Shown here: in pieces, positions 15,512-26,020 of the stretch
Layout: each line of letters starts with the position of its first letter
Numbering within the stretch: position 1 is the stretch's first letter
NCBI GenBank assembly: GCA_022712915.1
Contig: JAFLJQ010000256.1
Coordinates: 1-64,000 of the forward strand
Reading direction: 5' to 3'
From: Gammaproteobacteria bacterium
GTDB taxonomy: Bacteria > Pseudomonadota > Gammaproteobacteria > UBA6429 > Thiohalophilaceae
Length of the DNA: 64,000 bases
Notes under the pieces: model-generated
Database searches by the model: none
What the model was told of the DNA's origin: nothing
Seen by the model: the letters and a program-made list of their open reading frames with translations, nothing else
Position numbers and translations under genes: made by a program

Positions 15512-16027
15512 TTATTGTTTCATTACCATGAATGTACCTGAGAGTTTGTCTCGCCATGAGTTTTCCCAGTGATCGATGACTAGCCAGATACAAGCAATGA
15601 CCAGTAGCCAGGCAGGACTGAGGGCGAGTATCCAGTCAGTAAAATAGTTTGCCTGAATTTTTTCGGGGACAAATTGCCGGATCAGGCCGAGGGTCAGAAT
15701 TCCCCATGCGGGCAAACTGCTGAGAAATCGAATTAAGGCCTGTTTCCAGGTAATTGCGCTGCCATCCTTCTGTTTGATTCGGATGTGCCAGACATGCATA
15801 CCCAGAGTTTGTCCTCCATGAACCCAGAAGCTCGCATAGAACAGAAAACAGACTGTCAGCAAGTAAAGACTTAGTAGTGGGCTATTGGGTTTGATAATAC
15901 CGGCATGGGTCAAGGGTATTGTAATGGCCGATGCAATCAGTAATACGGCTATAAGCAGTAGGCCATCATAGATTAATGAGATAAGTTGGCGCAAGGCACT
16001 GGCTTTTTCAGTTTCGATCATGCTCAT
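15512..16027 (-). CDS. RDD-family membrane protein
   Basis: This 171-residue inner-membrane protein has about four hydrophobic segments. It shows the RDD layout: an R-x-x-x-x-x-x-D pattern in the first helix (LRQLISLIYDGLLL), a central W-x-H-G-G-Q-T-L-G-M turn and a final WRDKLSGT motif. RDD genes commonly sit beside lptFG in gammaproteobacteria, as here. Some RDD proteins act in Na+/H+ exchange, but the usual function is unknown. It runs convergent to lptG and divergent from the DUF2173-like cluster. Confidence 0.85.
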   Translation of the reverse strand: MSMIETEKASALRQLISLIYDGLLLIAVLLIASAITIPLTHAGIIKPNSPLLSLYLLTVCFLFYASFWVHGGQTLGMHVWHIRIKQKDGSAITWKQALIRFLSSLPAWGILTLGLIRQFVPEKIQANYFTDWILALSPAWLLVIACIWLVIDHWENSWRDKLSGTFMVMKQ

Positions 16028-16058
16028 GATTGATTCTTGTCGTTATCAGGACTATATA

Positions 16059-16088
16059 TTGACATTGTACATGTATTAATCATAGATA
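16059..16088 (+). promoter_or_regulatory. Candidate sigma-70 promoter for the DUF2173-like cluster
   Basis: A perfect -35 hexamer TTGACA at 16059-16064 is followed 18 bases later by TAGATA, a fair -10 match, about 50 bases before the first DUF2173-like start codon. A short TGTACATGTA palindrome lies in the spacer and could be an operator. This is a visual call only. Confidence 0.45.
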
Positions 16089-16136
16089 AGAAATTTTGGG
16101 TGTAGATATTTTACGGTCATATACAAATGAGGGACT

Positions 16137-16493
16137 ATGAGTATTATAAATGAATTGGCCACTATGCCAGGTGTGATTGCTGCTGGAGAATATTCTTATC
16201 GGGGTGATCGGTTTTCCTATGAGGGGCAACTGGATGAGGAAAAAGCCCGTATGGCTTCAATTATGTGTCGTGCTACGACCATGGCGGTGCGTATGCAAAC
16301 CGACATGATGAAATCATTGAATGCCGATTGTGGCTGTGCGCCATCTCGTGGCTGGATCATTAAAGGTTCTAGTTTTAGTGTGTGTGTGGTGGCAAATATT
16401 TTTTGTTTTATTGACAGTGGCTCAGTATCTCTAAATGACATTGTTAAAATGATGCGCGACAAGGTGCCTAATCAGGATAGGCAGTTGGTTTAG
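16137..16493 (+). CDS. DUF2173/roadblock-like small protein 1
   Basis: This 118-residue cytosolic protein begins MSIINELATMPGVIAAGEYS and contains DRFSYEGQLDEEKARMASIMC, RGWIIKGSSFSVCVV and IFCFIDSG. The alternating strands and helices fit a roadblock/LC7 (profilin-like) fold, and I match it to the DUF2173 family, which is frequent in sulfur-oxidising and related proteobacteria. Roadblock proteins often dimerise and regulate small GTPases, but no MglA-type GTPase is in the window. It is first of three such genes in a row on the plus strand. The family call rests on memory of family sequences. Confidence 0.7.
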   Translation: MSIINELATMPGVIAAGEYSYRGDRFSYEGQLDEEKARMASIMCRATTMAVRMQTDMMKSLNADCGCAPSRGWIIKGSSFSVCVVANIFCFIDSGSVSLNDIVKMMRDKVPNQDRQLV

Positions 16494-16532
16494 AATCCTT
16501 GTGACTCAATATGGATTGCAGAGGATAAATAA

Positions 16533-16868
16533 ATGGCTGACCTGGAAAATTTACTAAAATTGGATAGTGCACGAGCGGCCTTTAAGTTTAGTGCCAAAGG
16601 TGAACTTGTCGATCACAAGATAGCCGAGGATAGCGGCTTGAATGAATCGGTACTCGATTTGTTATGCCATGTTTGTGTTGCGAATATGTCGATTGCCAGT
16701 ATGCAGGCATGTGGTTGGGAAAATATGACAGGGATTAAAGGTTTCTACCCCATCGAAGGTTTTACTTTGATTGGTTTTGACTGGACAGCTATTGCCAATA
16801 GTGAATATGGTGTGGTGTTGCCCAATGATAAAGTTAATTATGAGAAAGTCTATGCAGCATTGGCGTAA
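16533..16868 (+). CDS. DUF2173/roadblock-like small protein 2
   Basis: This is a 111-residue protein, 39 bases after the first. It is the most divergent of the three: it opens LENLLKLDSARAAFKFSAKGELV and ends with WTAIANSEYGVVLPNDKVNYEKVYAALA. The same strand-helix-strand order (short N-terminal helix, hairpin, long amphipathic helix with Cys residues, then strands) suggests the same fold. Its helix holds the unusual run LLCHVCVANMSIASMQACG with three cysteines. Function is unknown; it could pair with either neighbour as a heterodimer. Confidence 0.65.
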   Translation: MADLENLLKLDSARAAFKFSAKGELVDHKIAEDSGLNESVLDLLCHVCVANMSIASMQACGWENMTGIKGFYPIEGFTLIGFDWTAIANSEYGVVLPNDKVNYEKVYAALA

Positions 16869-17065
16869 GGATTTTTCCAAGAGTGCATTTTTTACCCCAA
16901 CGGGTAGCGAGGTCTGTAATAACGGTATCAGTCTGGCACTCAAATCGTTATGACTCTTAATTGCGGCGGTTCTTTGCTCTACCTTCTACGCTTATGCCGT
17001 CGTGTGTGCAGTGTTTGTTTGCGCTCATGAAAAAACACTGTTTTTGACGTATCCACAAGAGGGCT

Positions 17066-17404
17066 GTGGTGATGATTAAGCAATTGATGGCATTGGATGG
17101 GGTCATGGTGGTTTGCAATTTCCGCGATGATGGCTTGTTGGTGGAAGGGTATGGTGCATATAACACGGAACAACTGACGGGGTTGGCCAAGTTGGCACAT
17201 AGCTATAAGCGTATGGTGCAGGGCAATGCCGATCAACTGGCTATATTCACCCAGATTAACGGCTGGACGCCGCCAGGTGGCTGGATTGCACGGGGGCCAG
17301 AGATGACGGTGTGTAGTATGAGGAATACGGTCTGTGTGGTGAAAAATAGTGAGGGAGCACTGAACGAGGTTATGCAGGGGCTGTCCGAGGCTTCTCGCTG
17401 GTAG
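17066..17404 (+). CDS. DUF2173/roadblock-like small protein 3
   Basis: This 112-residue protein lies 197 bases downstream of the second. It reads MIKQLMALDGVMVVCNFRDD, then LVEGYGAYNTEQLTGLAKLAHSYKRMVQ, PPGGWIARGPEMTVCSM and NTVCVVKNSEGALNEVM. The block GGWIARGPEMTVC aligns with RGWIIKGSSFSVC of protein 1, so the two are clearly paralogues. The start is an ATG just inside a GTG-rich stretch; GTG at 17060 is an alternative two codons earlier. purL follows after 64 bases. Function is unknown. Confidence 0.7.
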   Translation: MVMIKQLMALDGVMVVCNFRDDGLLVEGYGAYNTEQLTGLAKLAHSYKRMVQGNADQLAIFTQINGWTPPGGWIARGPEMTVCSMRNTVCVVKNSEGALNEVMQGLSEASRW

Positions 17405-22917: not shown

Positions 22918-23913
22918 ATGAATAAGAAAATAATGGGAATTAAAAATATAATTAAAATTTGGCTGATTGTATCGTCTGTTTTTATGGGCTTTACAAGTTT
23001 TTCGGTCTCGGCGGCAGTGTTTCCTGATACCTATCTGCAGACCTGTGTGGATGCAGCCGTTGTTAGTAGTGGTGTGGCAACCGCTGAAGATTTGACATCT
23101 CTTACCTGTTTCCCTAATTTAGGACTTTCGGATCTTACGGGTATAGAAGCTCTTGTAAATCTTGAAAGTTTGACTATTTATGGTACTTCGGTCCATGATT
23201 ATTCGAAACTGGCGACTCTAACGGGTTTGACATATCTGAACCTGCAGTGGAATATGCAAGATGTTGATGTTAGTCCTCTAAGGCATTTAGTTAATTTACA
23301 GACGCTCAACCTTTCAGTTAATAATATCCCTGTTCACGGTAATCTTAAAGATCTTGTCTCATTAACATCTGCTACAAGTATCAACCTAGACGGCAATGCG
23401 GCTATGTCCTGTGTAGACTTGCAGATTCTTATCGATAACATGCTGCCGGGTGTTGTTAGTCCTAGTGTTGCTACAGCGGGTGTTACATGTAAAGCTGGAA
23501 TACCTGTTGCAGATCTAGTGTTTCCTGATCCTGCTTTACAGGCTTGTGTAGATTCTGCGAGCAGTGGTGCGGTCTACGCTCACGATGTCACTGGCATTTA
23601 TTGCCCATTTGTGGGTATTTCGGATGTCAGTGGCATGGAAAAGATGTCAGGTCTGACTTATTTGAGCTTTTACTATAATAATATTGTTGATGTTACGCCA
23701 CTGAAGGGATTAAGAGGTCTGACTGTCTTGGAACTGGATTACAACAATGTCAGTATTGGTGTCAGGGAACTGGATGATCTAACTAATCTAACCTTTTTTG
23801 GGATTTCAGGTAACATGTATATGTCCTGTGCAGATTTGGATTATCTCAAAGGGATTTATGGGAGTATCCTCTGGTATCAGTCTTATTACTACCCAAGCTG
23901 TACTAACCCTTAG
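22918..23913 (+). CDS. Secreted leucine-rich-repeat protein 1
   Basis: This 331-residue exported protein has a signal peptide (residues ~1-32, cleavage near SVSAA). The mature part has two similar modules. Each opens with VFPD..LQ.CVDAA, passes through a conserved Cys and LSDLTGIEAL, then short 22-residue leucine-rich repeats (LTYLNLQWN, LQTLNLSVN), and closes with MSC.DL. Module 1 ends near residue 195 in VTCKAGIP and module 2 at the C-terminus in SCTNP. The repeats resemble internalin-type LRRs of bacterial surface and secreted proteins. The paired Cys suggest disulfides. It is a tandem paralogue of the gene at 24806, with the first 24 codons almost identical. Confidence 0.8.
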   Translation: MNKKIMGIKNIIKIWLIVSSVFMGFTSFSVSAAVFPDTYLQTCVDAAVVSSGVATAEDLTSLTCFPNLGLSDLTGIEALVNLESLTIYGTSVHDYSKLATLTGLTYLNLQWNMQDVDVSPLRHLVNLQTLNLSVNNIPVHGNLKDLVSLTSATSINLDGNAAMSCVDLQILIDNMLPGVVSPSVATAGVTCKAGIPVADLVFPDPALQACVDSASSGAVYAHDVTGIYCPFVGISDVSGMEKMSGLTYLSFYYNNIVDVTPLKGLRGLTVLELDYNNVSIGVRELDDLTNLTFFGISGNMYMSCADLDYLKGIYGSILWYQSYYYPSCTNP

Positions 23914-24805: not shown

Positions 24806-26020
24806 ATGAATAAGAAAATAATGGAAATTAAAAACATAATTAAAATTTGGCTGATTGTATCGTCTGTTTTTATGGGCTTTACAAGTTTTTCAGCTTCAGC
24901 GGCGGTGTTTACGGATACCAAGCTGCAGGTCTGTGTGGATGCGGCTGCTGCAAACGCCGGTGTGCCTGCTGAAAGTCTGACGAATCTCAGGTGCTCTTCT
25001 ATGCTGATTTCAGACCTTAGTGGTATGGAGGCGATGGTGGGACTGACTTCATTGGGCCTGCAATTTAATAAAATTATTGATATCTCACCGCTGGCTAATC
25101 TAACGGGGCTGACTTTTCTGGAACTAGATTTTAATCGGATCAGGGACGTTACGCCGCTGGGTAATCTTACCATGCTGGAGAGGCTTCATATTTCAGATAA
25201 TGATTTTCATTTGACTAGTAACCTTGCTGCTCTTAAGTCATTAACTAATGCAGTGACTATCTATATGCCGAGCTGGACCAGTCCAGGTAATACTGGTATG
25301 TCCTGTGCGGAACTGCAAGACCTCACCAATACCCTTGGCGCAAATGTTGTAAGCCCAACTGCTTTAGTAGGTGTTACTTGTTCTGATCCAGTACCCGTGG
25401 CAAATGTAGTGATTCCTGATGCCAGTTTGCAGGCCTGTGTAAATTACGCTTTTCAAAACATCGGTGCGGTACATGCCCATGATTTGTCAGACCTTGTCTG
25501 CTATTTCACTCTGATTTCAAATCTTAGTGGTATAGAAGCGTTGACGGGTCTGAATTGGCTGTCGGTGGTTATTTCTGGTGTCAGTGATGTCACGCCGCTG
25601 CGCAATCTAACAGGTTTAACCAGTCTGAATCTGAGATCGAGTGCTATTACTGATGTCACGGCGCTGGGTAATCTAACGGGGTTGACCCGTCTGGATCTAG
25701 CTTATAATAATATTAGTAGTGGTGTCGCGGCGCTGGGTAATCTGCCCAATTTGACTCATCTTGATCTAACTAGTAATAATATTAGTGGTGTTGTCACGGC
25801 GCTGGGTAATCTGACCAGTCTGAATTACCTTAGTCTTGTAAGTAATAGTCTTCAGGGGACTAGTAATATTAGTGCTCTTAGCTCATTAACAAATACTAGT
25901 ACTCTTGCGCTAGATAATAATGTAGGTATTTCCTGTACGGAACTGCAGGGCCTTATCAGTCTTGGACTACCTGTAAGCCCTAATGTTGCCACAAACGGTG
26001 TAACCTGCACCAACCCTTAG
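24806..26020 (+). CDS. Secreted leucine-rich-repeat protein 2
   Basis: This 404-residue paralogue of the preceding LRR protein shares its signal peptide almost exactly (cleavage near SASAA). It also has two modules opening with VF.D..LQ.CVDAA and VVIPDASLQACVNYA, but the second module carries more LRR units: repeats around residues 250-350 read LTSLNLRSS, LTRLDLAYN, LTHLDLTSN and LNYLSLVSN at 21-24-residue spacing. Each module ends with MSC/ISC plus a VTC. Repeat-number expansion relative to gene 1 suggests unequal recombination. A role in adhesion or host or cell contact is typical for internalin-like LRRs but is not shown here. Confidence 0.8.
   Translation: MNKKIMEIKNIIKIWLIVSSVFMGFTSFSASAAVFTDTKLQVCVDAAAANAGVPAESLTNLRCSSMLISDLSGMEAMVGLTSLGLQFNKIIDISPLANLTGLTFLELDFNRIRDVTPLGNLTMLERLHISDNDFHLTSNLAALKSLTNAVTIYMPSWTSPGNTGMSCAELQDLTNTLGANVVSPTALVGVTCSDPVPVANVVIPDASLQACVNYAFQNIGAVHAHDLSDLVCYFTLISNLSGIEALTGLNWLSVVISGVSDVTPLRNLTGLTSLNLRSSAITDVTALGNLTGLTRLDLAYNNISSGVAALGNLPNLTHLDLTSNNISGVVTALGNLTSLNYLSLVSNSLQGTSNISALSSLTNTSTLALDNNVGISCTELQGLISLGLPVSPNVATNGVTCTNP

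Follow-up and report, generated by a model that had tools for sequence, protein, structure and literature searches.

The roadblock fold occurs chiefly in proteins that regulate molecular switches. MglB of Thermus and Myxococcus is a roadblock/LC7 GAP of MglA. MglB and MglC of Myxococcus are described as paralogous roadblock-type proteins that interact (PMC7949163), and these two paralogues belong to a polarity system with MglA. In the eukaryotic Ragulator, roadblock heterodimers (LAMTOR2/3 and LAMTOR4/5) act as a scaffold together with p18/LAMTOR1 and the Rag GTPases (PMC5696360). The DUF2173 family (PF09941), to which the proteins considered here belong, is itself uncharacterised. Its sole mention in the literature searched is a sulfur-induced archaeal protein, a DUF2173 membrane protein that in two Sulfolobaceae is 99- and 32-fold up on elemental sulfur (PMC11323534). 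This near-absence agrees with an earlier sequence-only reading of the locus, which had described the family as largely uncharacterised.

The locus lies in a window of 64,000 nucleotides, the whole stretch of DNA that was analysed, in which three open reading frames, A, B and C, form a head-to-tail array on the + strand at 16137-17404 (Table 1), in tandem as that reading had described them. The assignment to DUF2173 is likewise sound: PF09941 bit scores of 123 (A), 94.6 (B) and 115 (C) compare with a gathering score of 26.1, and the matches run over the whole domain (profile positions 2-105 of 106). A, B and C are the only DUF2173 copies in the source genome. Within a locus A and C are about 27% identical, and either is 21-22% identical to B. 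One member had been called divergent and Cys-rich; B is indeed divergent, but A is the richest in Cys (five residues, against three in B and three in C). A plasmid tblastn search with A as query gave no match, nor did sequence searches of the PDB, whether with A or with alignment A2.

Table 1. Features of the DUF2173 trio and its surroundings; positions are those of the window unless a locus is named
Feature	Position	Strand	Details
Gene A, DUF2173 protein	16137..16493	+	118 aa; PF09941 8.4e-36; A clade 62/62; AF2 roadblock topology, pLDDT 76; motifs GEYSYRGDR, MCR, invariant Cys44, GWI.KG
Gene B, divergent DUF2173 paralogue	16533..16868	+	111 aa; PF09941 5.7e-27; B clade 62/62; AF2 pLDDT 90.3, pTM 0.80; top Foldseek matches MglB 1j3w/3t12; motifs CVAN..I..MQ..GW, GFYP
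Gene C, DUF2173 protein	17072..17404	+	110 aa; PF09941 2.5e-33; C clade 62/62; motifs FRDDG, YKR..Q.NADQL, GWTPPGGW; probable start
Divergent intergenic region 5' of A	16028..16136	.	109 bp; candidate promoter and ribosome-binding site
B-C spacer	16869..17065	.	197 bp, unusually long
RDD-family membrane protein, divergent from trio	15512..16027	-	PF06271 7.5e-14; neighbourhood tables
Trio beside cbb3-oxidase operon, three families	L086 7067-14999; L103 1-7962; L059 7795-17001; L113 1-8133		ccoNOPGHI; in L113 ccoGHI

DUF2173 is present in 33/40 genomes of the source organism's order and in 71/370 genomes of a class-wide draw of relatives, in which families other than the organism's own are mostly represented by one to three genomes. 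Exactly three copies occur in 63 of these 71. Two genomes carry two copies (G354, in which one is a partial match, and G394), four carry a single copy (G395, G521, G600 and G620) and two carry six, namely G032, with 7% contamination, and G055, with two separate trios. The second trio of G055 (L060 7420-8577) is complete, more divergent and near suf genes; the trio can therefore occur twice as a unit. Seventy loci were read, 65 of them trio loci from about 20 families, and in all 65 the genes lie on one strand in the order A-B-C, the divergent trios of families f94, f185 and f219 included, and are in most cases separated by a few to tens of bases. Because order and strand are the same in so many loci and families, the arrangement is not a matter of chance. 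The sequence-only reading had named the lack of a conserved trio in relatives as grounds for refutation, and the trio is clearly conserved there.

The three paralogues are each monophyletic (62/62 in every case), with clade supports of 0.79, 0.97 and 0.998, and their pairwise-identity matrices across loci correlate at r = 0.85-0.90. As read from these sequence comparisons, the separate clades and correlated matrices indicate one ancient triplication before the families diverged, with inheritance as a unit since. In an evenly drawn sample of the phylum (299 genomes) DUF2173 was found in the source genome only, and thus the trio is restricted and the family rare in Pseudomonadota at large. As a module of three genes the trio is real and ancient, and it is apparently undescribed.

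Gene C probably starts at its ATG, since relatives begin MIK.L, the GTG at 17066 being a possible alternative. A promoter of the trio's own is plausible in the divergent region 5' of A: over 1.6 kb, promoter-like consensus matches number 7 against 3.7 +/- 2.0 in shuffles, a mild excess, and GAGG-like sites precede A in several relatives. In most members of the family the B-C gap ranges from -4 to about 20 bp. The long spacer of the source genome may be an insertion, because it has no similarity to any locus fetched from other genomes. As a structured RNA the spacer was rejected, there being no stable RNA fold (z -0.26), and an Rfam SAM-III match at 16452-16535, with a score of 18.3 against a gathering score of 45, was treated as chance.

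The proteins had also been called roadblock-like, and this stands for A and B at the level of predicted fold but not at that of the sequence profile, Robl_LC7 (PF03259) having no match to A, B or C at E <= 1. A and B were folded with AF2 on a 15-sequence alignment (A: pLDDT 76.2, pTM 0.69), and both are predicted to have the topology alpha-beta-beta-alpha(long)-beta-beta-beta-alpha. In Foldseek searches the MglB structures head the matches of B (E 6.5e-5, TM to query 0.66-0.69), followed by numerous other roadblock proteins. For A, the single match at E <= 0.001 is a Thorarchaeota (Asgard) roadblock protein (8.1e-4), after which come LAMTOR and MglB; these matches are weaker than those of B. 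On the predicted models the roadblock/LC7 fold is assigned confidently to B and moderately to A, so that the two are roadblock-like by predicted fold and DUF2173 by sequence.

Regulation of NTPases is the classical role of roadblock proteins (PMC4316618), and the solved structure nearest to B is MglB; both points would suit a conventional role in which the trio, as a GAP, GEF or scaffold, regulates a small Ras-like GTPase whose gene lies elsewhere in the genome, as MglB does MglA. No GTPase adjoins the trio in the neighbourhood tables, in keeping with what had been noticed from the sequence. The source genome has no match over cut-off to PF03029, the profile that detects MglA/Rup (a sub-cut-off match lies in a 271-aa frame), and no Robl_LC7 protein by PF03259 search. 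Matches to the Arf model, found in the source and five other genomes, lie in long frames (about 440-880 aa), where matches to translation-type GTPases would be expected; the model was set aside as an inadequate GTPase detector, as it failed to pick up the MglA-like GTPase in G003 that PF03029 found. When PF03029 matches over cut-off are counted, with two ParA-like ones left out by our own judgement, a plausible MglA-type small GTPase is present in about 21/71 DUF2173 genomes and missing from about 50/71, and such a GTPase is therefore not required, other GTPase classes being possible given what the Arf model missed. The idea that the trio regulates a GTPase is thus weakened genome-wide, and a conventional regulator of the MglB kind is quite improbable.

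A separate locus of G003, a member of the source organism's own family, holds two Robl_LC7 proteins, a third small protein and an MglA-like GTPase (L131 3433-8928), with globin-like and phosphatase-like ORFs recognised by eye. Comparisons by hhalign with the three proteins of this roadblock locus were not significant, the alignments being small.

The suspected enrichment of the family in sulfur oxidisers is supported within Gammaproteobacteria when checked by co-occurrence with sox and dsr genes. The source genome carries dsrA and soxB, and among the 71 DUF2173 genomes soxB is found in 66, dsrA in 51 and either in 70, as against either in 113/299 genomes without DUF2173 (Fisher p about 5e-24, a value that ignores phylogeny and overstates the association because the genomes are related). 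At the family level, soxB/dsrA markers are found in 21 of the 22 DUF2173-bearing families, the exception being that of G623. As the trio's partner dsrA alone was rejected, 20/71 DUF2173 genomes being without it. The trio is missing from most genomes with soxB or dsrA (113/183) and is therefore accessory; four members of the organism's own family (G013, G014, G019 and G024) keep sox and dsr and are without it.

In the organism's own family the trio lies between the divergent RDD gene, itself preceded by pepA and lptFG, and purL. Downstream of purL the source window also holds two leucine-rich-repeat paralogues (22918-23913 and 24806-26020). The RDD gene adjoins the trio in many families and is part of a conserved neighbourhood, any functional tie to the trio being putative. 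The same left side recurs in f111, f113, f146, f186 and f209, followed by pcnB, folK, panB and panC, as identified by eye. Elsewhere the neighbours of the trio are rpoH and cco genes (f20, where a second trio is near suf genes), a gene for a LonB-like protease (f219), one of the deacetylase family (f185) or pgi (f203), and a search across trio neighbourhoods for a recurrent partner gene yielded none present everywhere. In high-GC loci, many of the flanking ORFs (F13, F18 and F21 among them) resemble antisense frames and were left uninterpreted. In two genera of f94 the trio lies immediately upstream of ccoNOPGHI and shares its strand, in f20 the trio and the ccoNOPGHI operon converge, and one f203 genome has ccoGHI at a distance of about 2.4 kb; noticed after the fact, this cbb3-oxidase adjacency is a lead only.

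That the usual site of the trio is a housekeeping lptFG-RDD locus counts against the explanation preferred here. The conservation of the site by pepA, lptFG and RDD across many families, and trio losses within the family without a corresponding loss of sox/dsr, would fit an incidental link to sulfur, the trio being an old Gammaproteobacteria gene set with another role (e.g. at the envelope, in view of the lptFG and RDD neighbours) and sharing its ancestry with sox/dsr lineages. Yet the trios of f20, f94, f185, f203 and f219, which have no adjacent lptFG/RDD, are still found in soxB or dsrA genomes, and the markers extend to all but one of the DUF2173-bearing families; a merely incidental link is decidedly unlikely.

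Each paralogue keeps its own residue signature across loci. With family-weighted conservation, Gly12, Gly23, Gly30, Cys44, Trp73 and Gly77 of A are at 100%, as are Asn51, Met57, Ala59, Gly61 and Trp62 of B, in which Cys48 reaches 92%; Phe17, Gly21, Gly28, Gln50, Asp54, Trp65, Pro67 and Trp71 of C are at 98-100%. A Cys in the long helix (alpha-2) is common to A (Cys44, invariant among 65 proteins), B (Cys48) and the single-copy and paired DUF2173 members, and, judged by its presence in the latter, is an ancestral feature. It is gone from most C proteins and kept in those of divergent trios only. This conservation was noticed after the fact, which again counts against the preferred explanation. 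The conserved and ancestral helix Cys, together with the association with sulfur oxidisers, would be expected if A, B and C were redox or sulfane-sulfur handlers in which Cys44 (A) and Cys48 (B) bind a persulfide, a metal or another ligand. Such a role is unlikely, however, given the loss of the helix Cys from C outside divergent trios, the poor conservation of Cys65 and Cys67 of A, and the fact that structural reasons alone can conserve a buried Cys.

The preferred explanation, held tentatively at somewhat less than an even chance, is that A, B and C constitute one heteromeric complex of the roadblock-like kind, linked to sulfur-driven respiration and without an MglA-type GTPase. Of its parts, a heteromeric complex is likely and a role in sulfur-driven respiration plausible. 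A single DUF2173 gene would have been triplicated to give A, B and C, which, inherited together, would be the subunits of one ancient hetero-oligomer. This complex, most likely cytoplasmic, would serve sulfur-driven respiration as a regulatory scaffold or sensor and would have no dedicated MglA-type GTPase, with the conserved alpha-2 Cys (Cys44 of A, Cys48 of B) serving as part of a functional site. A narrower version, in which a sulfur-oxidiser-specific roadblock complex of three subunits, again without an MglA-type GTPase, relays or senses sulfur or redox state to respiration via the helix Cys, is rather doubtful. The fixed order of three paralogues over about 20 families points to an obligate, seemingly undescribed complex. 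Should the trio prove to be part of sulfur oxidation, this core pathway of the sulfur cycle would gain an accessory component that had gone unrecognised, and a roadblock assembly in bacteria that lacks the usual GTPase would, if real, widen the known roles of the fold.

The literature searched yielded no description of a fixed A-B-C trio of DUF2173 genes. The Sulfolobaceae protein shares the DUF2173 domain and has sulfur-responsive expression, but it is archaeal and multi-transmembrane, and no trio is described there (PMC11323534). To MglB the trio is likened by predicted fold, as the top Foldseek match of B, and it differs in being without a Robl_LC7 profile match, an adjacent MglA or one over cut-off in the source genome, and in having three paralogues where MglB is one. 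MglB and MglC act alongside MglA whereas the trio forms one operon in which such a partner was not seen, and Ragulator, to which A has weak structural matches, differs from the trio in being eukaryotic and in its p18/LAMTOR1 and Rag GTPases, none of which was seen with the trio. A, B and C themselves match the DUF2173 model over its full length, well over the family cut-off, and A and B have a predicted likeness to roadblock proteins.
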